Part shown: positions 52,112-64,000 of the stretch, piece by piece
Numbering within the stretch: the first letter of the stretch is position 1
Layout of the letters: each line of letters starts with the position of its first letter
DNA from: Limimaricola variabilis
Lineage (GTDB): Bacteria > Pseudomonadota > Alphaproteobacteria > Rhodobacterales > Rhodobacteraceae
Assembly: GCF_014195545.1 (NCBI RefSeq)
Contig: NZ_JACIBX010000007.1
Span: 1 to 64,000 of the forward strand
Direction of reading: 5' to 3'
DNA: 64,000 nucleotides
The notes under the pieces: model-generated
Seen by the model: only the letters and a program-made list of their open reading frames with translations
The model's database searches: none
What the model was told of the DNA's origin: nothing
Translations under genes and position numbers: made by a program

Positions 52112-52942
52112 TCAGCCGACGAAGGCCTTCTCGATTACGAACTCGGCCGGGTCGGAGTTGGCGCCCTCGCGCAGGCCGGCCTTTTCGAGCAGTTCCTTGA
52201 TGTCGAGGTTGAAGGCGAGGCTGCCGCAGACCATCGCGCGGTCGGTCTCGGGGTCGAGCGTCGGGACGCCGAGATCCGAGAACAGCTCGCCATTCTCGAT
52301 CAGATGGGTGATCCGGCCCATCTTGGGGCTCTCCTCGCGGGTCGTGGTCGGGTAGTAGACCAGCTTGTCGAGGTTCTCCTCGCCGATCAGCTCGCGCAGC
52401 ATCTCGTCGTTCTTGACGCTGTCGACAAGTTCGCGGCCATAGGTCAGCTCGGCCACGTCGCGGCAGGTATGGGTCACGATCACCTGCTCGAACTTCTCGA
52501 AGGTCTCGGGATCGCGCAGCAGCGAGGCGAAAGGCGCGAAGCCGGTGCCGGTCGAGAACAGCCACAGCCGCTTGCCGGGGATCAGCGCGTCATGCACCAG
52601 CGTGCCCACTGGCTTGGGGCGCAGGATGACGTGGTCGCCTTTCTGGATGTGCTGCAGCTTCGAGGTGAGCGGACCGTCGGCCACCTTGATCGAGTAGAAC
52701 TCCAGCTCCTCGTCCCAGTTGGGCGAAGCGATGGAATAGGCGCGCATCAGCGGCTTGCCGTTGTCACCCATCAGGCCGATCATCACGAACTCGCCCGAAC
52801 GGAAGCGCAGGCTCGCGGGCCGCGTGATGCGGAACGAGAACAGGCTGTCGGTGTAGTGACGCACGGACGTCACGACCTGCGCGTCGGGGGACTGGGCCAC
52901 GCGGGCGGCGTTGGTCTGGGTCACTGGGCTTTGCTCGGTCAT
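52112..52942 (-). CDS. fpr: Ferredoxin-NADP reductase Fpr
   Basis: A 276-aa FAD enzyme that moves electrons between NADPH and ferredoxin or flavodoxin. The flavin motif is RAYSIASPNWDEELEFYSIK near residue 68, the NADP-binding motif STGTGFAPFASLLRD near 130, CGSLAFNLDIKELLE near 230, and the C-terminus ends VIEKAFVG as in bacterial Fpr. It lies 52 bases after the DUF934 gene on the same strand as the cys genes, so it may reduce ferredoxin for sulfite reductase. It may also serve oxidative-stress roles. Confidence 0.93.
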   Translation of the reverse strand: MTEQSPVTQTNAARVAQSPDAQVVTSVRHYTDSLFSFRITRPASLRFRSGEFVMIGLMGDNGKPLMRAYSIASPNWDEELEFYSIKVADGPLTSKLQHIQKGDHVILRPKPVGTLVHDALIPGKRLWLFSTGTGFAPFASLLRDPETFEKFEQVIVTHTCRDVAELTYGRELVDSVKNDEMLRELIGEENLDKLVYYPTTTREESPKMGRITHLIENGELFSDLGVPTLDPETDRAMVCGSLAFNLDIKELLEKAGLREGANSDPAEFVIEKAFVG

Positions 52943-52994
52943 GTCTTTCTCGCTCGGCTCGAATAGGGGAGGGGGCGCAGGAGGTAAAGGCGGC

Positions 52995-53402
52995 TCAGCC
53001 GCGCAGCCGCGCTTGGTAGTGATGCGCCTGCCAGTCGGCGCGGGCCAGCCACTGCTCCTCGGGCTGGCGCTCGGCCAGCTCGTCGGAGATCTCGACCTCG
53101 TCGAAACCCGAACGCCGGGCCATGGCGTATTGATCCGCGATCACGTGGCCGGCCGCGCGCAGCCGGCCGGTGAAGCCCAGGCTCCGAAGGTCGCGGGCAT
53201 GGGTGAAGCCGCGCCCGTCGGAAAAGGCCGGGAACAGCACCCGGATGGCGGCGATCTCGCCCAGCCGGCCGACCAGCTCGCGCGGGTCGTCGGCGGGGGC
53301 GATCTCGATCGCGGTGTCGGTCGCGCTCGCCTCGGCCAGCGGCGCGAAGCCGCCGGTGAAGTCGTCGGGAGCAAAGCCCTTGTCGGTCACGATCACGGTC
53401 AT
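52995..53402 (-). CDS. DUF934 protein of the cys operon
   Basis: A 135-aa protein. Conserved DUF934-like segments are RVLFPAFSDGRGFTHARDLR near residue 54, RLRAAGHVIADQYAMARRSG near 80 and FDEVEI near 100. DUF934 genes accompany cysI/cysH widely in proteobacteria without CysJ, and the protein is thought to help sulfite or nitrite reduction; its biochemistry is not settled to my knowledge. It lies 61 bases after cysH. Confidence 0.9.
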   Translation of the reverse strand: MTVIVTDKGFAPDDFTGGFAPLAEASATDTAIEIAPADDPRELVGRLGEIAAIRVLFPAFSDGRGFTHARDLRSLGFTGRLRAAGHVIADQYAMARRSGFDEVEISDELAERQPEEQWLARADWQAHHYQARLRG

Positions 53403-53463
53403 CTGGTCCTCTCGGGGCCGCGCCCCTGTTCGTCACTTCGAAGAATTGGCCAATTCCGGCGTC

Positions 53464-54213
53464 TCAGCTGGTGGCTTCGGCGGGTTTGCCGCGCACCATC
53501 CTGCCGTTCACGAAATGGATACCGCATTCTTCCTTGTCGCTGTCGCGCCAGCGCCCGGCGCGGGGATCCTCGCCCGGCGCGACCTTGCTGGTGCAGGGCG
53601 CGCAGCCGATCGAGGGGTAGCCTTGGGCCACCAGCGGATGCCGCGGCAGCCGGTTCTCGGCGATATAGTCCTGCAGGTCCTCGCTGGTCCAGTGGGCCAG
53701 CGGGTTGATCTTGATCCGCAGGTCGTCCTCGTTCTCGAAGAATTCGAGCGCGGCACGGGTCTTGCCCTGGTAGCGCTTGCGTCCGGTGATCCAGCTGTCG
53801 AAGCCTGACAGCGCGCGCTGCAGCGGTTCGGTCTTGCGGATCGCGCAGCACAAATCAGTGTCGGACTTGTGCAGCAGACCCTCGGGGTCATGCGCGGCCA
53901 GCGACTCGGGGCGGGCCTTGATGGTCCGCATGTCGGTGAAGCGCAGCCGCTCCGCCAGATCCTGCTGGTAGGCCAGCGTTTCGGGAAACAGCATCTCAGT
54001 GTCGACGAACAGCACCGGCGTGGTCCGGTCGATCACCGAGACGAGGTGCAACAGCACCACCGATTCAGCGCCGAAGGAACTGACCATGGCGATCCGGCCG
54101 AGCGCGTGCTCGGCCAGCGCCTTTTCCAGCACGGCCGTCGCGCCGTGGTGACGGTAGCGGCCGTTCAGTTCGGCGACGGTCTCGTCGATCCGATGCGGGG
54201 TCTCATGCAGCAT
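53464..54213 (-). CDS. cysH: Assimilatory adenylylsulfate (APS) reductase CysH
   Basis: A 249-aa thioredoxin-dependent reductase that makes sulfite from adenylylsulfate. Substrate-binding segments are VSSFGAESVVLLHLV near residue 44 and ITGRKRYQGKTRA near 142. The cysteine pairs CCAIRK near 122 and CAPC near 203 bind a 4Fe-4S cluster, the mark of APS rather than PAPS reductase; a C-terminal ECGIHF segment carries the catalytic Cys. It overlaps the cysI end by 11 bases. Confidence 0.94.
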   Translation of the reverse strand: MLHETPHRIDETVAELNGRYRHHGATAVLEKALAEHALGRIAMVSSFGAESVVLLHLVSVIDRTTPVLFVDTEMLFPETLAYQQDLAERLRFTDMRTIKARPESLAAHDPEGLLHKSDTDLCCAIRKTEPLQRALSGFDSWITGRKRYQGKTRAALEFFENEDDLRIKINPLAHWTSEDLQDYIAENRLPRHPLVAQGYPSIGCAPCTSKVAPGEDPRAGRWRDSDKEECGIHFVNGRMVRGKPAEATS

Positions 54214-55882
54214 CCGCTCTCTCCCGTTTCACCTGCTCGGGATAGAGCACGGCCTTGAACGGCTCGGGCCCCAGCCGGCGATAGGCGGCGAGGAAGCTCT
54301 CCTCGCGGCTGGCACGCAGGTCGAGATAGCCGAGAACCAGCCGTTCGATGGCGGGCACGATCTCCTCGGCCGAGAAGCCGGGGCCGGCGCGCTCGCCGAT
54401 CGCGGCATTCTCGTCGCCCGACCCGCCCAGCGTAACCTGGTAGTTTTCGACGCCGGCGCGGTCGAGCCCGAGGATGCCGATATGGCCGACATGGTGATGG
54501 CCGCAGGCGTTGATGCATCCCGAGATCTTGATCTTGAGCGGGCCGACATCGTGCTCCAGCTTCAGCTCCTCGAAGCGCAGCGCGATCTGCTGCGCGACCG
54601 GGATCGAGCGGGCGGTGGCCAGCGCGCAGTAATCCATGCCGGGGCAGGCGATGATGTCCGACACCAGCCCGATATTGGCGGTGGCGAGGCCGTGCTCGCG
54701 CAGCTTGGCATGCAGCTTCGGCAGGTCCGACTTGTGGACATGCGGCAGGATCACGTTCTGCTCGTGGCTGATCCGCAGCTCACCATGCCCGTAGGCGTCG
54801 GCCAGGTCGGCCAGCACGCGCATCTGCTCGGCGGTGGCGTCACCCGGCGTCTGGCCCGGCTTCTTGAGCGAGACCGAAACGATGGCGTAGCCCTCGGCGC
54901 GATGCGCGGTGAGGTTGGTGTCGGCCCAGGAACGGAACACCGGGTCGGCGCCGTAGGCCGCCTCATAGGCGTCCACCGGGGCATTGCGCCAAGCCGGCGG
55001 GGCGAACTGCGTGCGGATCTCCTCGAACATCTTCACGTCCACGCCTGAGAAGGCGGGCTTGGTGCGGGCGAACTGCTCGTTTACCGCGTCACGGAATGCG
55101 TCGAGGCCGTTCTCGAAGACGGTGATCTTGATCCGGGCCTTGTACTTGTTGTCGCGGCGGCCCAGCAGGTTGTAGGCGGCGACGATCGCCTCGCAGTAGG
55201 GCAGCAGGTCCTCCTGGGAGACGAACTCCTCGATCACCTTGCCGATCATCGGGGTCCGGCCGAGGCCGCCGCCGACCAGCACCTTGTAGCCGATCTCGCC
55301 GCGGGCGTTCTCGACGATCTGGATGCCGATATCGTGGGCCTGGATCACCGCGCGGTCATGGCTCGCGCCGGTCACTGCGATCTTGAACTTGCGCGGCAGG
55401 AACTGGAACTCGGGGTGATCGGTCGACCACTGGCGCAGCAGCTCGGCCACGGGGCGCGGATCGGCGATCTCGTCCTGGGCAGCCCCGGCGAAATGGTCGG
55501 CGGTCACGTTGCGGATGGTGTTGCCGGAGGTCTGGATCGCGTGGAGGCCCACGTCAGCCAGCGCCTGCAGCATGTCCGGCACGTCGCTGAGCGCGGGCCA
55601 GTTGTACTGGATGTTCTGGCGCGTGGTGAAATGGCCGTAGCCACGGTCCCACTTTTCGGCCAGGAGCGCCAGCGTGCGCATCTGGTCGGAGGAGAGCGTG
55701 CCATAGGGGATCGCCACGCGCAGCATGTAGGCATGCAGCTGCAGGTAGAGGCCGTTCATCAGCCGCAGCGGACGGAACTCCTCCTCCTTGAGGGAGCCGT
55801 CGATCCGGCGCTCCACCTGTCCGCGGAACTGGTTCACGCGCTCCTGGACGAAGGTGCGGTCGAAGTCGTTGTAGTGGTACAT
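54203..55882 (-). CDS. cysI: Sulfite reductase hemoprotein CysI
   Basis: A 559-aa siroheme/4Fe-4S enzyme that reduces sulfite to sulfide. It has two ferredoxin-like and two catalytic repeats. RGYGHFTTRQNIQYNWPAL lies near residue 80, TSGNTIRNVTADHFAG near 118, and the cluster Cys are in ACPGMDYCALA near 413 and SGCINACGHHHVG near 457. There is no CysJ flavoprotein gene beside it. Ferredoxin reduced by Fpr is a likely donor, by context. The start at 55882 lies 2 bases after the DUF2849 stop. Confidence 0.95.
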   Translation of the reverse strand: MYHYNDFDRTFVQERVNQFRGQVERRIDGSLKEEEFRPLRLMNGLYLQLHAYMLRVAIPYGTLSSDQMRTLALLAEKWDRGYGHFTTRQNIQYNWPALSDVPDMLQALADVGLHAIQTSGNTIRNVTADHFAGAAQDEIADPRPVAELLRQWSTDHPEFQFLPRKFKIAVTGASHDRAVIQAHDIGIQIVENARGEIGYKVLVGGGLGRTPMIGKVIEEFVSQEDLLPYCEAIVAAYNLLGRRDNKYKARIKITVFENGLDAFRDAVNEQFARTKPAFSGVDVKMFEEIRTQFAPPAWRNAPVDAYEAAYGADPVFRSWADTNLTAHRAEGYAIVSVSLKKPGQTPGDATAEQMRVLADLADAYGHGELRISHEQNVILPHVHKSDLPKLHAKLREHGLATANIGLVSDIIACPGMDYCALATARSIPVAQQIALRFEELKLEHDVGPLKIKISGCINACGHHHVGHIGILGLDRAGVENYQVTLGGSGDENAAIGERAGPGFSAEEIVPAIERLVLGYLDLRASREESFLAAYRRLGPEPFKAVLYPEQVKRERADAA

Positions 55883-55884
55883 GC

Positions 55885-56184
55885 TCAGAGCTCCACCTGC
55901 TTGCCGTGGGCGTAGTTCGACGGGCCGCGGGTGCGGAAGGTTTCGCGGAAATGCGTGGGCTCGGGGCCCTCGGCGCCGGCCTTGGCATCGGCGAGATAGG
56001 GACCGACGACGATATCGGCCTGGCTTTGCGCCGCCAGCAGCCGCAGCTCGGCATGCGCCTCCTCGTCGATCAGCTCGGCCTCGCGCATGTCCGGAGTCCA
56101 GCGCCCGTCGGCGGTCAGCCAGACGGCATCGCCCTCAAGGAGGCGGTTGGCGGTCACGACCTTGGGCGTGAACTTGCGGGGCAT
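55885..56184 (-). CDS. DUF2849 protein, first gene of the cys operon
   Basis: A 99-aa protein starting MPRKFTPKVVTANRLLEGDA, with VWLTADGRWTPDMREAELID near residue 21 and FRETFRTRGPSNYAHG near the end. DUF2849 genes precede cysI in many alphaproteobacteria; the role is unknown, perhaps siroheme handling or assembly. The start at 56184 has GGAG 7 bases upstream; an in-frame TTG at 56202 is less likely. It is divergent from the Lrp-type gene. Confidence 0.9.
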   Translation of the reverse strand: MPRKFTPKVVTANRLLEGDAVWLTADGRWTPDMREAELIDEEAHAELRLLAAQSQADIVVGPYLADAKAGAEGPEPTHFRETFRTRGPSNYAHGKQVEL

Positions 56185-56203
56185 GGCTGTCTCCGTCTTC
56201 AAG

Positions 56204-56229
56204 TGTCAGGCTGATATAGGACAGGTGTC
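56204..56229. promoter_or_regulatory. TGTC/GACA repeats in the divergent cys/Lrp promoter region
   Basis: GACAGGTGTC (56220-56229) is a perfect 10-bp dyad, and a further TGTC lies at 56204-56207. On the minus strand TATATC, a possible -10 for the cys operon, lies between them. The arrangement suits an operator for the divergent Lrp-type regulator, by inference. Confidence 0.35.
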
Positions 56230-56323
56230 TTGCTTTTGGCTACCGGTCGCGGCAGATAAGGAATGCGTGTTTCCGCTGGCGCCGTTCGGCGGACATGCGT
56301 TCCGAATTCAAGGAGTGCCGCGA

Positions 56324-56785
56324 ATGTCGTTCCAGCCCGATGAGATCGACCGGAAGATCCTGATCGAGTTGCAGCGCGATGCGTCGCGTTCGCTCGACGA
56401 AATCGCCAAATCGGTGGGGTCGTCGAAGACGCCGGTGTGGAACCGGATCCGCAAGATGCGCGAGCGCGGCATCATCGGGCCGCAGACCGTGGTGCTCGAC
56501 GCCGAGGCGCTGGGCTTCGAAGCCTGCTTCTTCGTGCTGATCCGGACCAGCGCGCATGAGGCCGACTGGCAGGCGCGGTTCCTCGCCACGCTGCGCGACC
56601 GCCCCGAGGTGCAGGAGGCGCACCGGCTGGCGGGCGACATCGACTACATCCTCAAGGTGCGGGTGCGCAACGCGCGTGCCTATGATGCCTTCTACCAGGC
56701 GCTGATCGCCGAGGTGCGGGTGCAGAGCGTCACGGCGCTGCTGTCGATGGAGGAGATCAAGTCCACGGTGGCGCTGCCGCTCTAG
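56324..56785 (+). CDS. Lrp/AsnC-family regulator divergent from the cys operon
   Basis: A 153-aa protein with an AsnC-type helix-turn-helix (about 5-55; EIAKSVGSSKTPVWNRIRKM) and a RAM ligand domain (about 65-145; HRLAGDIDYILKVRVRNARA). The start at 56324 has AAGGAG at 8 bases. It is transcribed away from DUF2849-cysI-cysH, so control of that operon by cysteine or a related ligand is likely but inferred. The stop overlaps convergent P450 by 4 bases. Confidence 0.93.
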   Translation: MSFQPDEIDRKILIELQRDASRSLDEIAKSVGSSKTPVWNRIRKMRERGIIGPQTVVLDAEALGFEACFFVLIRTSAHEADWQARFLATLRDRPEVQEAHRLAGDIDYILKVRVRNARAYDAFYQALIAEVRVQSVTALLSMEEIKSTVALPL

Positions 56786-57948
56786 AAGGCGCGCACCATT
56801 AGCCGTTCCAGCCCGTGGAAATGGTAGAGATCGGCATAGCGCGGCGGCTCCGCGAGCCGCAGCTCGGGGCAGTGGCGCAGAAGCGAGGCCAGCGCCACCC
56901 GCATCTCGAGCCGCGCCAGCGGTGCGCCAACGCAGAAATGGATGCCGGCGCCGAAGCCCAGATGCGCCGGCCCCTTGCGGGCAGGGTCGAAGCGATGGGG
57001 ATCGGCATAGGCCTCCGGGTCGCGGTTGGCCGCGCCCAGCAGGCAGGCGATCCGGTCGCCGCGTACGAAGCGGTGACCAAAGACCTCCAGATCCTCGTAG
57101 ACCCAGCGGGTGAACATGTGCAGCGGCGGGTCGAGCCGCAGCAGCTCCTCGATGCATGGGCCGTCGATCTCGCGATGATCATGCGCCAGCAGCGTGCGCA
57201 CCGCGTTGCCCAGCGAATGCACCGTCGCCTCGTGGCCCGCGTTGAGCAGCAGGATGCAGGTCGAAACCAGCTCCTCGGTGGTGAGCTTCTCGCCCGCCTC
57301 CTCGGCGGCGATCAGCTCCGAGATCAGGTCGTCGGCCGGGTTGCGCCGCTTCTCGGCGATATAGACCGCGAGGAAATCGCAGAACGCCTGCGTCGCCATC
57401 TCGGCCGCGTCTTCCATCGTCCGGGTGCGTCCGGCCTGGTACATGCCGACCATGGCGTTGGACCAAGCCAGCAGGTCGTCGGCGCGGCTTTCGGGCAGGC
57501 CCATCAGCCGGGCGATGACGACCACCGGCACCTTGCGGGCATAGGCGTCGAGCAGGTCGAACGCGCCCTGCGGAAAGCCGTCGATCAGCCGGTGGCACAG
57601 CGCCTCGATTTCCGGCTCCAGCGCCGCGATCCGGCGCGAGGTGAAGGCGTGCAGCACCAGCTTGCGCAGCCGGGTATGCGTCGGCGGCTCCAGTTCCAGC
57701 ATCGAATGCGCTTCGCAGGCGTAGAAGGCAGCGAGATGGCCGGGGATCTCGGGCGCATTCTCGACCGGCGCCTCGCGGCCCATCCGCCGGTCGCGCAGGA
57801 TCGCGGAGACGGCGGCATGCGAGGTGGCGCAGGGCAGGTCGTATTCGCTCCAATGGAACAGCGGCCCGGCGGCCCGCGCCCGGTCGTAGAACGGGTAGGG
57901 GTCCTGGACGAATTCCGGGTCGGTGGGGGATTGGTTCAATACCTGCAT
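56782..57948 (-). CDS. Cytochrome P450
   Basis: A 388-aa soluble bacterial P450. The heme-Cys loop is GFGAGIHFCVGAPLARLEM near residue 338, the ExxR motif is in EELLRLDPPLHMF near 265, and the I-helix is LLNAGHEATVHSL near 233. The typical His-Arg pair is in THTRLRKLVLHAFTSRR near 90. No ferredoxin or ferredoxin reductase gene is adjacent, so electron partners come from elsewhere. The substrate is not predictable. The start at 57948 (MQVLNQSPTD) has a poor ribosome binding site; GTG 57969 is an alternative. Confidence 0.92.
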   Translation of the reverse strand: MQVLNQSPTDPEFVQDPYPFYDRARAAGPLFHWSEYDLPCATSHAAVSAILRDRRMGREAPVENAPEIPGHLAAFYACEAHSMLELEPPTHTRLRKLVLHAFTSRRIAALEPEIEALCHRLIDGFPQGAFDLLDAYARKVPVVVIARLMGLPESRADDLLAWSNAMVGMYQAGRTRTMEDAAEMATQAFCDFLAVYIAEKRRNPADDLISELIAAEEAGEKLTTEELVSTCILLLNAGHEATVHSLGNAVRTLLAHDHREIDGPCIEELLRLDPPLHMFTRWVYEDLEVFGHRFVRGDRIACLLGAANRDPEAYADPHRFDPARKGPAHLGFGAGIHFCVGAPLARLEMRVALASLLRHCPELRLAEPPRYADLYHFHGLERLMVRAF

Positions 57949-58007
57949 GAGGCGAGCGTGCCGCGCCACTCTGGTCTTGGCAAGCGCGCAGACGGTATGA
58001 TGCGCCG

Positions 58008-59723
58008 ATGATTGGATCGCGGATCAGGCGCGCCCTCGGGGTGCTCGGTTTCCTTGCACTGGTGGCGGCGTTGGCGCTGGCCGTGCAGCATTGGGGATTC
58101 CGCGCAGCGCTGAACGAGGCCGCGCGGCGCGGCGTGTCCGACTTGGCGCTGGCCTCGGACCGGCTCACCGGCGAGTTGCAGCGCTATCGCCAGCTCGCGG
58201 TGCTGACCGCGCGCCATCCCGATCTTGCCCCGCGGCTCGACGGGCCCGATGGCGGTCGCGCCGAAGCGCTGCTGCGACAGACCGCCGACATGACCGGGGC
58301 GCTCGACATCGTCCTGCTCGACGCGCGCGGCCGCGAGGTGGCGGCTGCGGTCGAGGGGCCACGCCGGGGCCATATCGGCACGCCTTGGTTCGAGCGGGCG
58401 ATGGACGGCGCGCTGGGCGTCGCGCATCTGTCGAGCGGCCGCTACGGGCGGCGCATCTTCCTCTTCGCGGCGCCGCTTTTCGCCCCCGAGGGGCCGGTGG
58501 CGGGCGTGGTCGTGGTGGTCACCGATGTCGAGGCGATCGAGGCGAGCTGGCGGGGCGACCGCCCGGCGCTGTTCTTCACCGACGAGACCGGGCGTGTCTT
58601 CGTGTCGAACCGCTCGGAACTGGTTGGCCGCGCCGATCTGGGATTGGTGGCGCGCCATCGCGAGGCGGGGCACGAGATCTGGCGGATGAGGGCCGGCCCC
58701 TATCTGCCAGAGCGTGGCCTGCATCTGGCGCAGCCGCTCCCGGTGATCGGCCTGACCGGCGAGGCGCTGCTCGACACCGCGCCGGCGCGGCGCATCGCGC
58801 TGCTGCAGGCGGCCGCGGCGGCGGCGCTCTGCCTCGCCTTCGGTGCGCTGCTGTTTCTCGCGACGATCAGGCGGCACACGCTGGCCCGCGCCAATGCCCG
58901 GCTCGAGGAACGGGTGGCGCGGCGGACCGTGGCGTTGCAGGCCGTCAACGCCGATCTGCAGCGCGAGGTGGCCGAGCGTGCGGCGGCCGAGGAACGGCTC
59001 AGGCGGGCGCAGGCGGATCTGGTGCAGGCGGGCAAGCTCTCGGCGCTGGGCCAGATGTCGGCCGGAATAAGCCACGAGCTGAACCAGCCGTTGATGGCGA
59101 TCCGCAGCTTTGCCGAGAATGCCGAGACCTTTCTGGAGCGCGGCAACACCCAGGCGGCGGGCCGCAATCTCGAACGCATCTCCGAGCTGGCGCGCCGGAT
59201 GGGCCGGATCATCCGCAACCTGCGCGCCTTTGCCCGGCAGGAAAGCGCGGCGGTGGTCGATGTCGATCTCGTCGCCGTGGTCGAGGCGGCGCTGGAAATG
59301 GCAAGCGCCCGGGCCCGGCAGGCGGATGTGACGATCGACTGGACCCCGCCCGGGACCCCGGTCGTGGTCCGCGGCGGCGAGGTGCGGCTGCAGCAGGTGC
59401 TCTTGAACCTCATCGGCAACGCGATCGACGCCATGGAGGGGCGCGAGGACAAGCGCCTCGTCATCGGCCTGAGCCGCGCCAGCGGTCGCGCCCGGCTGAC
59501 GGTGCGCGACAGTGGGCCGGGGATCGGTGAGCCGGACCGGATCTTTGACCCGTTCTACACCACCAAGGAGGTCGGCGCCGCCGAGGGGATGGGCCTCGGG
59601 CTGTCGATCTCCTATGGGCTCGTCCAGAGCTTTGGCGGCGCGATCCGGGGCCGCAACCACGAGGCGGGCGGGGCCGAGTTCACGGTGGAGCTCGATCTGG
59701 CGCGTGAAAGCGAGGCGGCATGA
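58008..59723 (+). CDS. dctB: C4-dicarboxylate sensor histidine kinase DctB
   Basis: A 571-aa membrane kinase. Helix one is about residues 9-27, a periplasmic tandem-PAS-type sensor about 28-265, and helix two about 266-288. A coiled-coil linker (about 295-340) leads to HisKA with ISHELNQPLMAIRSFAENAE (His near 355). The ATPase domain has NLIGNAIDAM near 471, DSGPGIGEPDRIFDPFYTTK near 502, and GMGLGLSIS near 530. Length and motifs fit DctB. It overlaps dctD by ATGA and lies upstream of the dctPQM transporter. Confidence 0.93.
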   Translation: MIGSRIRRALGVLGFLALVAALALAVQHWGFRAALNEAARRGVSDLALASDRLTGELQRYRQLAVLTARHPDLAPRLDGPDGGRAEALLRQTADMTGALDIVLLDARGREVAAAVEGPRRGHIGTPWFERAMDGALGVAHLSSGRYGRRIFLFAAPLFAPEGPVAGVVVVVTDVEAIEASWRGDRPALFFTDETGRVFVSNRSELVGRADLGLVARHREAGHEIWRMRAGPYLPERGLHLAQPLPVIGLTGEALLDTAPARRIALLQAAAAAALCLAFGALLFLATIRRHTLARANARLEERVARRTVALQAVNADLQREVAERAAAEERLRRAQADLVQAGKLSALGQMSAGISHELNQPLMAIRSFAENAETFLERGNTQAAGRNLERISELARRMGRIIRNLRAFARQESAAVVDVDLVAVVEAALEMASARARQADVTIDWTPPGTPVVVRGGEVRLQQVLLNLIGNAIDAMEGREDKRLVIGLSRASGRARLTVRDSGPGIGEPDRIFDPFYTTKEVGAAEGMGLGLSISYGLVQSFGGAIRGRNHEAGGAEFTVELDLARESEAA

Positions 59724-60967
59724 CGAACAGGGTTCTGTTGGTGGACGACGATCGCGCGGTGCGCGAGGCGCTGGGACAGACGCTGGAGCTGGCGGATCTC
59801 GAGCCCATCCTCGCGGGCTCCTATATCACGGCCAAGGACCACATCGCACCTGACTTCGACGGCGTCATAGTCACCGACATCCGGATGCCGGGGCGCGACG
59901 GGTTCCACCTTCTGGAGCGGGCCCGGGAGGTCGATCCCGAACTGCCGGTGATCCTGCTGACCGGCGAGGGCGACATCCCGATGGCGGTCCGGGCGATGGA
60001 GCAGGGCGCCCATGCCTTTCTCGAAAAGCCCTGCGGGCCGAAGGAATTCGTGAGCACGGTGCGGCAGGCGCTCGGTCTGCGGGCAGAGGTGCTGGCCGCG
60101 CGGCAAGCGCGCGCGGCCAAGGTGGCGGGCGATGCGGCGAGCCGGATGCTGGTCGGCCGTTCGGTCCAGGCCGAGGCGTTGCGCGAGCGGGTTCGCGCGG
60201 TGGCGCGCGCCAGCGCCGAAGCGCTGGTCTGCGGCCCCCCGGGCAGCGGCACCTCGAAGGTGGCCGAGGTGATCCACCTGCTTTCGGCCTCTGCCCGTGC
60301 GCCATTCGTGAAGCGCGCGGCGGCCGCCCTCGACGAGGCCGGGCTCGCTGCAGCGTTCGAGGAGGCGGGCGCTGGCACGCTCTATCTCGACGAGATCGCG
60401 GCCCTGCCACCTGGGACGCAATACGCGCTGCTCGACCGGCTGGAGAGCGACGCGGGAACGCGGCCCCGGGTGATCGGCGGCACCACCCGCGATCCGGCTG
60501 CCGAGGCCGATGCGGGCCGTCTCAATCCCGAGCTGTTCTGGCGGCTGGACCTGATGCGCGTTTCCATCCCGCCGCTGCGCGACCGGCCCGACGATATCCC
60601 GGTCCTGTTTCGCCACTACGTCGCCCAGGCCTGCGAGCAGGCCAACCTGCCGATGCCGGAAATCGGCCCCGACCTGGTGGCGCGGCTGATGGCGCAGGAC
60701 TGGCCAGGAAATGCCCGCGCGCTGACCTCGGTGGCGATGCGAGTGGCGATGGGTCTCGATCCGGGGCTGGGCGAGGCTGATACCGGGGACGAGCTAGGGC
60801 TGGCCGAGCAGCTGGCCCGCGTCGAGCGCTCGCTCCTGATCGAGGCGCTCCGCCGTCACGAGGGGCATGCCACCCGCACTGCCGAAGCGCTGAAGCTGCC
60901 GCGCAAGACCTTCTACGACAAGCTGGCGCGGCACGGCCTCAAGCCCGAGGACTACAGGCGCGACTAG
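59720..60967 (+). CDS. dctD: DctD-like response regulator with a degenerate AAA+ domain
   Basis: A 415-aa regulator. The receiver domain (1 to about 120) has the phospho-acceptor D53 in VTDIRMPGRDG, TGEGD near 83 and the conserved Lys in LEKPCG near 103. The central domain aligns with sigma-54 activators, but Walker A reads GPPGSGTSK near 173 with Thr for the essential Lys. The GAFTGA loop is absent: PFVKRAAAALDEAGLAAAFE runs straight into GAGTLYLDEIAAL. The Walker B Asp-Glu is kept. A Fis-type helix-turn-helix (about 375-412; RTAEALKLPRKTFYDKLARH) ends the protein. It is about 30 residues shorter than usual. It probably binds DNA in response to DctB but cannot remodel sigma-54 holoenzyme. 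Confidence 0.92.
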   Translation: MTNRVLLVDDDRAVREALGQTLELADLEPILAGSYITAKDHIAPDFDGVIVTDIRMPGRDGFHLLERAREVDPELPVILLTGEGDIPMAVRAMEQGAHAFLEKPCGPKEFVSTVRQALGLRAEVLAARQARAAKVAGDAASRMLVGRSVQAEALRERVRAVARASAEALVCGPPGSGTSKVAEVIHLLSASARAPFVKRAAAALDEAGLAAAFEEAGAGTLYLDEIAALPPGTQYALLDRLESDAGTRPRVIGGTTRDPAAEADAGRLNPELFWRLDLMRVSIPPLRDRPDDIPVLFRHYVAQACEQANLPMPEIGPDLVARLMAQDWPGNARALTSVAMRVAMGLDPGLGEADTGDELGLAEQLARVERSLLIEALRRHEGHATRTAEALKLPRKTFYDKLARHGLKPEDYRRD

Positions 60968-60968
60968 C

Positions 60969-61018
60969 TGTGCGGTTTTCCGCACAATGCCGTGACGGAG
61001 TGTGCGGCGCGCCGCGCA
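60969..61018 (+). promoter_or_regulatory. Two tandem dyads, probable DctD binding sites upstream of dctP
   Basis: TGTGCGG-TTTT-CCGCACA (60969-60986) is a perfect 7-bp dyad. TGTGCGG-CGCG-CCGCGCA (61001-61018) is the same with one mismatch. Centres are 32 bases apart, about three helical turns, so both face the same side of the DNA. Paired upstream sites are the known layout for DctD in rhizobia. The first dyad begins 2 bases after the dctD stop. Confidence 0.65.
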
Positions 61019-61060: not shown

Positions 61061-61076
61061 TAATATTTTGTAAAAT
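61061..61076 (+). promoter_or_regulatory. Candidate -10 elements of the dctP promoter
   Basis: An A+T-rich island holds TAATAT (61061-61066) and TAAAAT (61071-61076). No good -35 hexamer is at the right distance from either. No GG-N10-GC pair of a sigma-54 promoter was recognised. This pattern suits an activator-dependent housekeeping-sigma promoter, with the dyads about 50-95 bases upstream. Confidence 0.4.
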
Positions 61077-61184
61077 AACGATTTCCACCGTGCTCGGTGA
61101 TTGAGCGGATTCCTGCTTGAGCGGTGGGCAAGCTGCCTGTTTCCTCGGCGCAACCGAAACCAAGTCTCTCGGGAGGAGACCCTC

Positions 61185-62189
61185 ATGAAATACCTTTCGC
61201 TCGCTGCCACCGCCGCCGCCCTCGCCATCGCCGCGCAGGCCGCACAGGCCGATCCGATGGGCTGCGACGCCGGCGAGACGGTGGTGAAGTTCAGCCACGT
61301 CACCAACACCGACAAGCACCCCAAGGGCATCGCCGCCGAGCTTCTCAAGACCCGCGTCAACGAGGAGATGGACGGCACGATGTGCATGGAGGTCTTCCCG
61401 AACTCCACGCTCTACACCGACGAGCAGGTGATCGAGGCGATGCTGCGCGGCGACGTGCAGATGGCGGCGCCGTCGCTGTCGCTCTTCGAGTCGATCACCA
61501 AGGCCTACCGCCTGTTCGACCTGCCCTTCCTGTTCGACGACATCGATCATGTCGATGCCTTCCAGGCCTCCGAGGAGGGCCAGAAGATGCTCGACGGCAT
61601 GCAGCGACGCGGCATCCAGGGCCTCGCCTACTGGCACAACGGCATGAAGCAGATGTCGGCCAATAAGCCGCTGATCGAGCCGACCGACGCGGCCGGGCTG
61701 AAGTTCCGCGTCCAGCCCTCCGACGTGCTGGTCGCGCAGATGGAGGCGCTCGATGCCAGCCCGCAGCCTATGGCCTTCGCCGAGGTATATGGTGCGCTGC
61801 AGACCGGCGTCGTCGACGGGCAGGAGAACACTTGGTCGAACATCTACGGTCAGAAGTTCTTCGAGGTGCAGGACGGCATCACCGAGACCAACCACGGCGT
61901 GATCGACTACATGGTGATCGCCAGCGTCGACTTCCTCGACAGCCTCGACCCGGCTGTCCGTGACCAGCTGGTCACGATCGTCGAGGAGGTCTCCACCGAG
62001 CGGAACGCCGCGGTGAACAAGGTTGATGCCGAGGCGCGTCAGGCGATCCTCGACGCCGGCAGCGAGATCCGCGAACTGACCGAGGAGCAGCGCGCGGCCT
62101 GGGTCGAGACCATGAAGCCGGTCTGGGCGCAGTTCGAGGAAGAGGTCGGCGCCGAAATGATCGAAGCCGCGCAGAACGCAAACAAGTAA
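61185..62189 (+). CDS. dctP: TRAP transporter substrate-binding protein DctP
   Basis: A 334-aa periplasmic protein. The signal peptide is residues 1 to about 23 (MKYLSLAATAAALAIAAQAA, then QAD). The mature part has KFSHVTNTDKHPKGIAA near residue 36, FRVQPSDVLVAQMEALDASP near 181 with the conserved Arg that binds the carboxylate, and GALQTGVVDGQENTWSNIY near 205. It captures C4-dicarboxylates for DctQM. The start at 61185 has GGGAGGAG upstream. It is the first gene of dctPQM. Confidence 0.94.
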   Translation: MKYLSLAATAAALAIAAQAAQADPMGCDAGETVVKFSHVTNTDKHPKGIAAELLKTRVNEEMDGTMCMEVFPNSTLYTDEQVIEAMLRGDVQMAAPSLSLFESITKAYRLFDLPFLFDDIDHVDAFQASEEGQKMLDGMQRRGIQGLAYWHNGMKQMSANKPLIEPTDAAGLKFRVQPSDVLVAQMEALDASPQPMAFAEVYGALQTGVVDGQENTWSNIYGQKFFEVQDGITETNHGVIDYMVIASVDFLDSLDPAVRDQLVTIVEEVSTERNAAVNKVDAEARQAILDAGSEIRELTEEQRAAWVETMKPVWAQFEEEVGAEMIEAAQNANK

Positions 62190-62277: not shown

Positions 62278-62970
62278 ATGAACGCCGTCCACACCAAGCC
62301 CGGCAGGGGGCGTCTGGCGCGCATCGTCGAGGAGTTCGAGGAGGGTATCATCGCCTTCCTGCTCGGCGCGATGACGCTGCTGACCTGCACCAACGTCATC
62401 ATGCGCTACGGCTTCAACAGCTCGATTATCTGGAGCCTCGAGACCGTGCTGGTCCTGTTCGCCTGGCTGGTGCTGTTCGGCATCGCCTACGGCTTCAAGA
62501 TCACCGCGCATCTGGGCGTGGACGCGGTCATCAACCTGCTGCCGCCGCGTGGCCGCCGGGTCGTGGCGCTGATCGCCTGCGCCGCCTCGCTGGCCTATGG
62601 CATTCTGCTGCTGAAGGGGGCGTGGGACTACTGGGCGCCCTTCGCCGACCTGCCCAAGACCACCGGCACCTGGCTGCCCACCGGCTTCGACACCCAGGCG
62701 CGCACCACCTCGTATTTCGAGACCGACCAGATCCCGATGTTCGACTGGCTGCGCTTCCTTGAGGGCTGGATCAACTACGACGAGCGCTATTCCAAGATGC
62801 CGCGCGTCATCCCCTACCTGATCCTGCCGATCTCGGCCGTGCTGATCCTGTTCCGGCTGATCCAGGCCACGATCCGCGTCTGGAAGGGCGAATCCGACAG
62901 CCTAATCGTCAGCCACGAGGCCGAAGAGGCGGTGGCCGACGCCGCGCATCTCAACCGGGAGCTCTCCTGA
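62278..62970 (+). CDS. dctQ: TRAP transporter small membrane subunit DctQ
   Basis: A 230-aa protein with four membrane helices (near residues 25-45, 55-75, 95-112 and 180-200). The DctQ signature region is NVIMRYGFNSSIIWSLETVL near 38, and GIAYGFKITAHLGVD follows. A hydrophilic loop of about 65 residues between helices 3 and 4 is longer than in minimal DctQ but common in this class. It pairs with DctM, whose gene starts 2 bases downstream. Confidence 0.93.
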   Translation: MNAVHTKPGRGRLARIVEEFEEGIIAFLLGAMTLLTCTNVIMRYGFNSSIIWSLETVLVLFAWLVLFGIAYGFKITAHLGVDAVINLLPPRGRRVVALIACAASLAYGILLLKGAWDYWAPFADLPKTTGTWLPTGFDTQARTTSYFETDQIPMFDWLRFLEGWINYDERYSKMPRVIPYLILPISAVLILFRLIQATIRVWKGESDSLIVSHEAEEAVADAAHLNRELS

Positions 62971-62972
62971 CC

Positions 62973-64000
62973 ATGGAAGTCGCGCTTCTCTTTCTCATGA
63001 TCGTCGGGCTGCTGCTGATCGGCGTGCCGATCGCCATCGCGCTCGGCCTGTCCTCGATCGTGTTCCAGCTCCTGTTTTCCGAGACCTCGCTGGCCTCGAT
63101 CGCGCAGTCGCTCTACCAGGCGATGGCCGGGCATCCCTCGCTGCTGGCGATCCCGTTCTTCATCCTCGCCTCGTCCTTCATGTCGACGGGCGGCGTGGCG
63201 CAGCGGATCATCCGCTTCGCGATCGCCTGCGTAGGCCACTTCAAGGGCGGCCTCGCCATCGCCGGCGTGCTCGCCTGCATGATGTTCGCGGCGCTTTCGG
63301 GCTCATCGCCCGCCACGGTGGTCGCGATCGGCTCGATCGTCATCGCGGCGATGCGGCAGGTGGGCTACACCCGTGACTTCGCCGCCGGTGTCATTTGCAA
63401 CGCCGGCACGCTGGGCATCCTGATCCCGCCCTCGATCGTGATGGTCGTCTATGCCTCGGCCACCGACGTCTCGGTCGGGCGGATGTTCCTCGCGGGCGTC
63501 ATCCCCGGCATCCTCGCCGGCGTCATGCTGATGATCACCATCTACGTGATGGCCCGGATCAAGGACATGCCGGCGGGTGACTGGCTCGGCTGGGGCGAGA
63601 TCTGGGCCAGCTTCCGCGATGCGTTCTGGGGGCTGTTCCTGATCGCGATCATCATGGGCGGCATCTACGGCCACCCCTGGGTCGACTTCTCGGGCGGTTT
63701 CCCGATCACCTGGGCGCCCGGCGCCTTCACCCCGACCGAAGCCGCCGCCGTCGCCGCCGTCTACGCCTTCCTCGTCGCCACCTTCGTCTATCGCGACATG
63801 GGGCCGCTGGCGGCGCGCGAGCCGGGCGGACGCCCGACGCCGCTCTACCGCGCGCCCTGGGCGCTGGTTACCGGCTTCGTGCATCGCGACACCCGCAAGA
63901 CGCTGTTCGAGGGCGGCAAGCTTACCATCGTGCTGATGTTCATCATCGCCAACGCGCTGATCCTCAAGCACGTGCTGACCGACGAGCAGATCCCGCAGCA
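62973..64000 (+). CDS. dctM: TRAP transporter large permease DctM (partial, runs off the window)
   Basis: The first 342 codons, starting MEVALLFLMIVGLLLIGVPI, of the sodium-coupled channel subunit. The conserved segments PFFILASSFMSTGGVAQRII near residue 60, GLAIAGVLACMMFAALSGSS near 90 and GTLGILIPPSIVMVVYASAT near 148 are typical of DctM. After about residue 200 it has an extended loop region (WLGWGEIWASFRDAFW, later FTPTEAAAVAAVYAFLVA) seen in longer DctM forms. The 3-prime end lies outside the window. Confidence 0.93.
   Translation, partial: MEVALLFLMIVGLLLIGVPIAIALGLSSIVFQLLFSETSLASIAQSLYQAMAGHPSLLAIPFFILASSFMSTGGVAQRIIRFAIACVGHFKGGLAIAGVLACMMFAALSGSSPATVVAIGSIVIAAMRQVGYTRDFAAGVICNAGTLGILIPPSIVMVVYASATDVSVGRMFLAGVIPGILAGVMLMITIYVMARIKDMPAGDWLGWGEIWASFRDAFWGLFLIAIIMGGIYGHPWVDFSGGFPITWAPGAFTPTEAAAVAAVYAFLVATFVYRDMGPLAAREPGGRPTPLYRAPWALVTGFVHRDTRKTLFEGGKLTIVLMFIIANALILKHVLTDEQIPQ

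Follow-up and report, generated by a model that had tools for sequence, protein, structure and literature searches.

A dctB-dctD locus with an altered regulator

The window analysed here, the first 64,000 nucleotides of contig NZ_JACIBX010000007.1 of Limimaricola variabilis (Rhodobacteraceae), ends in a dicarboxylate-type locus in which a two-component system precedes a tripartite ATP-independent periplasmic (TRAP) transporter. The sensor histidine kinase gene dctB (58008–59723, plus strand; HisKA and HATPase domains, and a dCache match under its cut-off) shares 4 bp at its 3' end with the start of dctD (59720–60967, plus strand), which encodes a 415-aa response regulator devoid of the GAFTGA loop and of the Walker A Lys. 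On the same strand follow dctP (61185–62189; solute-binding subunit and presumed target of DctD), dctQ (62278–62970; small membrane subunit) and dctM (62973–64000; large membrane subunit, assigned from gene order and sequence), the latter continuing past the window end.

DctD has the composition expected of the partner of the adjoining DctB-type kinase: a receiver domain (residues 5–114, 59732–60061), a Sigma54_activ_2-type AAA+ core, an AAA+ lid and a Fis-type helix-turn-helix (HTH; residues 365–404, 60812–60931). The original prediction, made from the sequence alone, had proposed that the GAFTGA loop and the Walker A Lys are absent while the receiver Asp, the Walker B acidic pair and the Fis-type DNA-binding domain are intact, and each of these points was borne out. 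The match to PF00158 covers only profile positions 1–64 and 88–167, a break indicating that the L1/GAFTGA segment is missing (approximate position, residues 203–212, 60326–60355), and the span between the Walker A and Walker B motifs is 53 residues, compared with 72 in the five GAFTGA/GAFPGA relatives measured. In the former Walker A motif, GPPGSGTSK (residues 172–180, 60233–60259), Thr178 replaces the Lys, whereas the receiver residues D10, D53 and K103 and D224/E225 of Walker B (LYLDEI, residues 221–226, 60380–60397) are kept. Two changes go beyond that prediction: a Lys is present two residues farther on (K180), and the first Arg-finger position, residue 269 (60524–60526), is an Asn. The protein hence lacks three features of sigma-54 enhancer-binding proteins, the GAFTGA loop, the Walker A Lys and the first Arg finger. 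With L1 gone and receiver and HTH retained it resembles the GAFTGA-less sigma-70 activators, but it does not have the retained Walker A Lys of those of the Rhodobacter capsulatus NtrC type. A Walker A motif shifted by two residues, with K180 as the working Lys, is not favoured because this column is mostly V/M/I/L in relatives with a GAFxGA loop, and there is no indel at this place relative to them.

The same losses are found throughout a clade

We asked how widely these losses are shared within the family. A first set was composed of 106 orthologues from different genomes, the window protein included. Its lower cut-off, a score of 360 bits with the window protein as reference, was chosen after viewing the alignment; the row just below it (L143, 356 bits) carries the Walker A Lys. 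Among 394 sampled genomes, 166 have a best match to the window DctD at E ≤ 1e-100, leaving aside the Lys-bearing genome G206, and the 106 proteins were read out of these 166. A second set comprised 80 loci from titled records, eight of them with a protein also in the first set; the nearest of these 80 to the window DctD is that of Limimaricola soesokkakensis (88% identity).

The survey of Rhodobacteraceae DctB-DctD pairs that had been suggested with the original prediction gave a uniform answer. Position 178 is occupied by T (48), I (40), V (10), N (4), L (2), S (1) or M (1) and by Lys in none of the 106 orthologues, and the Walker A Lys is likewise missing in 80/80 loci of the second set, where the +2 position is Lys in 79 and Arg in one. 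The GAFTGA loop is present in 0/106, the Walker A-to-B span is 53 residues in 105 and 52 in one, and Arg at position 269 is found in 0/106 orthologues as compared to 23/23 GAFxGA relatives. The receiver residues D10, D53 and K103 are each conserved in 106/106. Gene order is conserved as well: dctB lies upstream of dctD in 105/106 first-set and 79/80 second-set loci, and dctP downstream, within the flank examined, in 93/106 and 75/80. The proposal that this regulator has gone further than NtrC by losing both loop and Lys therefore stands, but the step is not a local one, being clade-wide. A sequencing slip or a pseudogene is ruled out by the identical loss throughout the 106 aligned orthologues and by the low dN/dS described below. 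As a separate observation, G107, which belongs to the same genus as the window, has no match to the window DctD better than E 2e-60; the presence of the regulator is patchy, and it seems to have been lost or gained inside one genus.

The AAA+ core is under changed constraint but keeps its predicted fold

In the GAFxGA relatives (n = 23) the AAA+ core is the best conserved domain, with a mean column entropy of 1.16 against 1.32 for the receiver (ratio 0.88). In the clade without the Walker A Lys (K-less clade), subsampled 50 times to n = 23, it varies more than any of the other three domains, with an entropy of 1.40 versus 0.86 for the receiver (ratio 1.63, range 1.56–1.77). Within this variable core two positions are nearly invariant: K180 in 105/106 orthologues (Arg in the remaining one) and E183 in 105/106 (Asp in the remaining one), the latter column being mostly R in the GAFxGA relatives. 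Between the window and L. soesokkakensis, pairwise dN/dS is 0.09 for the whole gene and 0.14 for the AAA+ core, with zero non-synonymous changes over residues 168–199.

An AlphaFold2 model of the window DctD, built from 79 of the 106 sequences, has a mean pLDDT of 94.3. Among the structural matches listed, its core superposes on the ATPase domains of enhancer-binding proteins, such as FlrC (4qht_B; Z 24.4, rmsd 1.7 over 208 residues). The prediction is therefore of a preserved AAA+ fold from which two catalytic residues are missing.

Tandem sites and a putative sigma-70-like promoter precede dctP

The region between dctD and dctP contains two palindromic sites, which we designate putative upstream activating sequences (UAS): UAS1, a perfect palindrome, TGTGCGGTTTTCCGCACA (60969–60986), and UAS2, TGTGCGGCGCGCCGCGCA (61001–61018), 32 bp from UAS1 centre to centre. 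These are followed by an integration host factor (IHF)-like site on the minus strand (61061–61073), which matches 7 of 9 consensus positions, and by a predicted -35 element, TTGAGC (61117–61122, plus strand), 99 nucleotides from UAS2 (+99), separated by a 17-bp spacer from a weak predicted -10 element, TTTCCT (61140–61145, plus strand). The predicted sites thus lie about 140–175 bp upstream of the predicted sigma-70-like start, an arrangement of tandem sites remote from the promoter that is characteristic of enhancer-binding proteins.

This layout is recurrent in the family. In 99 loci with a dctP match, allowing pair spacings of 31–34 bp, the tandem palindromes have a mean best-pair score of 24.7 of 28, compared with 15.2 (maximum 22) in 1980 shuffles; only three loci score under 20, and the best-pair spacing is 33 bp in 66, 32 in 29, 34 in three and 31 in one. 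For the 91 loop-less loci with a score of 20 or higher, offsets were then counted with the end of the second site as origin. The IHF-like element (the reverse of WATCAANNNNTTR) at +43, an offset kept in the family and followed by A/T-rich DNA, reaches a score of at least 7 of 9 at +41–46 in 53/91 loci (shuffled mean 5.3, maximum 12), and the IHF-alpha gene is present in the window genome. TTGA occurs at +92–104 in 45/91 loci (shuffled mean 4.3, maximum 12). An iterative -35/-10 alignment, seeded with the Escherichia coli consensus and scanning from +31 on, located the best element at +95–103 in 60/90 loci and one helical turn closer, at +85–92, in 13/90. A rerun gave 61 and 14 loci, whereas 100 shuffled sets treated with equal settings never exceeded 16 per 9-bp bin. 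The family consensus is TTGAGC-17-TTTTCT-like, and an earlier motif sampler run had picked out this promoter region too, although with its register displaced (8.0 bits of information versus 6.2 shuffled). The preference for +99 and for about +89 points to a face-of-the-helix requirement. We repeated the analysis on the 72 loci of the second set with a protein outside the first, 67 of them scorable and 64 with tandem sites: TTGA was found at +92–104 in 26/64 (shuffled mean 3.0, maximum 9), and 36/64 reached the IHF-like score (shuffled mean 4.1, maximum 11).

A sigma-54 promoter was also considered and rejected upstream of the window dctP, where the best -24/-12 score is 6 of 12 when GG-N10-GC is required and 7 of 12 when it is not. 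None of the 91 loop-less loci scores above 9, whereas the GAFTGA loci with an adjacent dctP (L147, L052 and L152) reach 10, 11 and 11 of 12. L147 and L052, the family's two GAFTGA loci, bear tandem sites as well; L152, from another family, has none, its best single site being 10 of 14. Three loop-less relatives that keep the Walker A Lys (L143, L144 and L145) score 7, 7 and 8, so the promoter change, as far as a small number of loci can tell, accompanies loss of the loop and not loss of the Lys. Two loci with GAFPGA or GAFAGA and an adjacent dctP (L159 and L063) have no good -24/-12 element (8 and 7 of 12).

The two sites before dctP are the only ones in the window genome with at most one mismatch. 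A wider regulon was rejected, as the 14 other places with two mismatches are fewer than the 26 per strand obtained with a reversed control pattern.

The sigma-54 gene was not found in the window genome

Searches of the window genome (99.55% complete, in 37 contigs) with three sigma-54 domains, PF04552, PF04963 and PF00309, were all negative; each of these searches was positive in 4/14 control genomes, including E. coli and Caulobacter. With no sigma-54 gene found by these domains, dependence of dctP expression on sigma-54, which would have contradicted the original prediction, is very unlikely here. PF00158 matched nine places in this genome, four of them weakly (20–26 bits), and none of the five enhancer-binding-type proteins read among them has an intact GAFTGA: besides DctD, these are an NtrC-like protein without the loop that keeps the Walker A Lys (GESGTGKS), an NtrX-like protein, L003 with a loop deletion, and one with GAFPGA, the NtrC-like and NtrX-like names being taken from sequence and position. 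With the four proteins other than DctD (L001, L002, L003 and L004), the enhancer-binding set looks, from these motifs, converted in a genome where sigma-54 was not found.

Across the family, rpoN is present in 37/166 genomes with the orthologue versus 90/228 without it (Fisher p = 3e-4, ignoring relatedness). Loss of rpoN is therefore associated with the orthologue but not tied to it, and was rejected as the sole driver. The genomes of the Lys-bearing loop-less trio differ in this respect: G206 and G263 have rpoN, whereas G057 has no listed rpoN match and no PF00309 match.

Loss of the loop probably preceded loss of the ATPase residues

A tree was made without the Walker A and loop columns from a quick search with no bootstrap, 34 of the 106 K-less rows being included and no characterised DctD sequence; its midpoint root serves for drawing only. 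One branch (SH-aLRT 99) sets the 34 K-less rows apart, and another (98) the 12 GAFTGA rows. L143 (G206), L144 (G057) and L145 (G263) are intermediate, although not as one group. They have a Walker A-B span of 62 residues and retain K178, R269, R275, D224, E225 and R333. Because these three relatives keep the catalytic residues checked but have no loop, the simplest history is that the loop was probably lost first and the ATPase residues second. A single loss of the loop across the wider tree was rejected, since an intact GAFTGA is missing from L064, L160 and L162 too, which lie on the GAFTGA side. Descent of the window protein from DctD is indicated by its grouping with GAFTGA DctD-type proteins in the tree and by the match of its receiver to that of Sinorhizobium meliloti DctD.

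Two further groups were observed in the same data. A long-branch lineage beside the K-less clade (L054, L055, L146 and L148, from G171, G156, G105 and G123) has the Walker A Lys, replaced by Arg in L055, but neither the Walker B acids nor the loop, both of which it has lost; a dctB-like kinase lies alongside, and no dctP match was found in the flank examined. By its residues, it is a different route of ATPase loss. In a second DctD-like group (L056, L058, L060, L063, L066 and similar), which has GAFPGA, GAYPGA or GAFAGA, the sigma-54-contacting Thr is substituted. The genomes of these five loci are G208, G122 and G378, which are off the rpoN list, and G035 and G237, which are on it, and the group is possibly another sigma-54-independent one.

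Neighbouring genes

The region 52112–57969 of the window carries, on the minus strand, a sulphur-assimilation-like cluster (FAD/NAD reductase, PAPS reductase and sulphite/nitrite reductase), together with an Lrp/AsnC-type regulator gene on the plus strand and, after these, a cytochrome P450 gene that lies 38 bp upstream of dctB on the minus strand.

Discussion

The window DctD and its K-less orthologues have, as read from their sequences, lost the loop, the Walker A Lys and the first Arg finger, and their loci have conserved tandem sites, an IHF-like site and a -35/-10-like element at a set distance. From this we infer, as the reading with a fair claim to being correct, that DctD is a phosphorylation-controlled and ATP-independent activator of the housekeeping polymerase that has retained the enhancer-and-loop architecture. 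DctB would phosphorylate DctD, and phosphorylated DctD would bind the two palindromic sites upstream of dctPQM. The DNA between these sites and the promoter would be bent, probably by IHF, allowing bound DctD to touch the housekeeping, sigma-70-type RNA polymerase at the weak -35/-10 and to recruit or stabilise it. ATP would not be hydrolysed, nor probably bound by the former Walker A motif. The AAA+ core may persist as a scaffold for oligomerisation or for contact with the polymerase, with K180 and E183 on the old P-loop helix. Control by phosphorylation, binding to the sites, looping, activation rather than repression, dependence on sigma-70 and absence of ATP binding are all steps that we infer. 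The original view of a plain phospho-dependent DNA-binding activator or repressor was largely right, and is narrowed here by the site layout: activation by looping is favoured because the sites lie some 140–175 bp upstream of the predicted start with the IHF-like site between. More tentatively, and with slightly less than even confidence, we propose that the family harbours a pseudo-ATPase DctD clade acting from tandem enhancers through an IHF bend on sigma-70 polymerase at a distance, free of nucleotide, which arose stepwise, the loop and promoter switching first and the ATPase residues being lost later and giving way to a new K180/E183 surface in contact with the polymerase or a neighbouring subunit.

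Several observations weigh against this reading. Much of the nucleotide-binding apparatus is still there: the P-loop glycines are kept (G172 in 105, G175 in 106 and G177 in 103 of 106), as are the sensor II Arg (R333, 104/106) and, mostly, Walker B (D224 in 101/106, E225 in 92/106), so some nucleotide binding is possible. The presence of rpoN in 37 orthologue genomes means that the loop-less DctD coexists there with sigma-54. On the promoter side, the best -35/-10 lies elsewhere in 17/90 loci, the untrained E. coli consensus gives no more than a small excess at +97–100 (10/36 scoring loci), the window -10 is poor and its IHF-like site incomplete, the shuffles preserve base composition only, and the comparison with GAFTGA promoters comprises three loci. 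Moreover, the counted loci are mutually related, so that counts are not independent events.

The retained nucleotide-binding residues lead to the first alternative, unlikely but deserving attention, in which DctD would activate sigma-70 polymerase like R. capsulatus NtrC and would still need to bind ATP, though not to hydrolyse it, by way of the P-loop glycines, K180 and sensor II. Besides the conservation of these residues, the precedent itself speaks for it, R. capsulatus NtrC requiring ATP binding and not hydrolysis as reported (PMC10274813). Against it, the Lys and the first Arg finger are each absent in 106/106, position 179 is Pro in 19/106, no other domain varies as much as the core, and K180 sits three residues beyond the last P-loop Gly, off the Walker A position. 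DctD might instead be a phosphorylation-controlled repressor of dctPQM that blocks the promoter or locks it in a loop, as the GAFTGA-less Caulobacter NtrC represses promoters activated by CtrA (PMC10274813). We regard this as improbable: the sites are far upstream of the predicted start, the window dctP promoter itself is overlapped by no match even when two mismatches are allowed, and this promoter is weak, like activated promoters. Fitness data of Ruegeria pomeroyi provide a weak in vivo hint of activation, if SPO2630, annotated as a C4-dicarboxylate TRAP regulatory protein, is the orthologue of the window DctD: its mutants and those of SPO2626 and SPO2627 (TRAP transporter) all had lower fitness in one or more multi-species cultures than when grown alone (PMC10041152). 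A still more doubtful possibility, to which we attach very little credence, is that DctD serves sigma-54 in hetero-oligomers with another enhancer-binding protein. Its Walker B and lid are largely intact and rpoN occurs in some orthologue genomes, but no sigma-54 gene was found in the window genome with the three Pfam domains, an intact GAFTGA is absent from the five proteins read among its nine PF00158 matches, and none of the 91 loop-less loci scores above 9 of 12 for -24/-12. That the gene is in decay and being lost is least credible of all, since the faster evolution of its AAA+ core than of its other domains is accompanied by low dN/dS, an unchanged stretch at residues 168–199 relative to L. 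soesokkakensis, and a reading frame and sites that are maintained across the family.

The family offers a readable series, in Walker A-B span (72, 62 and 53 residues) and in promoter type (-24/-12-like, then -35/-10-like), of the possible dismantling of an ATPase machine with its enhancer-and-loop layout kept. Sigma-54 activators are a standard example of ATP-powered transcription initiation, and with the series one can ask by experiment whether an enhancer needs the ATPase at all in order to act from afar. It is also a warning that proteins annotated as 'sigma-54-dependent' in this family may often be otherwise, and a pointer to how many such proteins may control organic-acid uptake.

Comparison with known systems

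Among the closest known arrangements is the S. meliloti DctB-DctD system, with which the window locus shares the receiver-AAA+-Fis layout, the paired kinase and an adjacent transporter of the dicarboxylate type. The S. meliloti DctD receiver is the best receiver-only PDB match to the window protein (1l5y, 162 bits), and 1qkk has the highest identity (42%) among the 50 structural matches listed (Z 24.2, rmsd 1.3 over 139 residues). S. meliloti DctD is, however, a GAFTGA sigma-54 activator. The window DctD, unlike rhizobial DctD, has neither GAFTGA, Walker A Lys nor first Arg finger, no sigma-54 gene was found beside it in the genome, and the genes that it presumably controls encode a TRAP transporter and are preceded by a predicted promoter of sigma-70-like type.

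Enhancer-binding proteins with a defective GAFTGA (TyrR, DhaR and HupR; Jannaschia sp. CCS1 among the organisms) were surveyed by Francke et al. in 2011, who suggested a shift to sigma-70 where an organism has no sigma-54 (PMC3162934); the text of that survey that was examined names no loop-less DctD clade, Walker A loss or promoter change. Among the literature matches listed, subscription journals being mostly uncovered, no title or abstract opening described a DctD without the Walker A Lys or GAFTGA, and in none of these matches was there a DctD clade that had lost both features, a series of graded losses or a promoter change.

Like the window DctD as we picture it, R. capsulatus NtrC acts from a distance. 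It had been put forward as the precedent in the original prediction, and aptly so, as it is loop-less, works through sigma-70, and is reported to need ATP binding but not hydrolysis (PMC10274813); the window DctD shares the deleted loop and differs in having lost the Walker A Lys. Caulobacter NtrC has an eight-residue L1 deletion and acts at sigma-70 promoters, and both its Walker A K178 and its Walker B D235 are reported to be required for growth on ammonium (PMC10274813). The window DctD resembles it in the L1 deletion and in the predicted sigma-70-like promoter, and is again distinguished by the absence of the Walker A Lys. VpsR of Vibrio is a structural match to the DctD model (Z 24.5, rmsd 8.6 over 344 residues, 20% identity); unlike the window DctD it binds c-di-GMP, according to the title of its PDB entry, and it is not known to be a DctB partner. 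It is also GAFTGA-less, acts at sigma-70 promoters and is reported to be ATP-independent (PMC10274813). GAFTGA-less activators are thus known as a concept from NtrC and VpsR, and the window DctD would be a variant thereof. As far as its residues tell, it is a DctD by descent but by function not a sigma-54-dependent activator, and its missing Walker A Lys and Arg finger take it a step further than NtrC.

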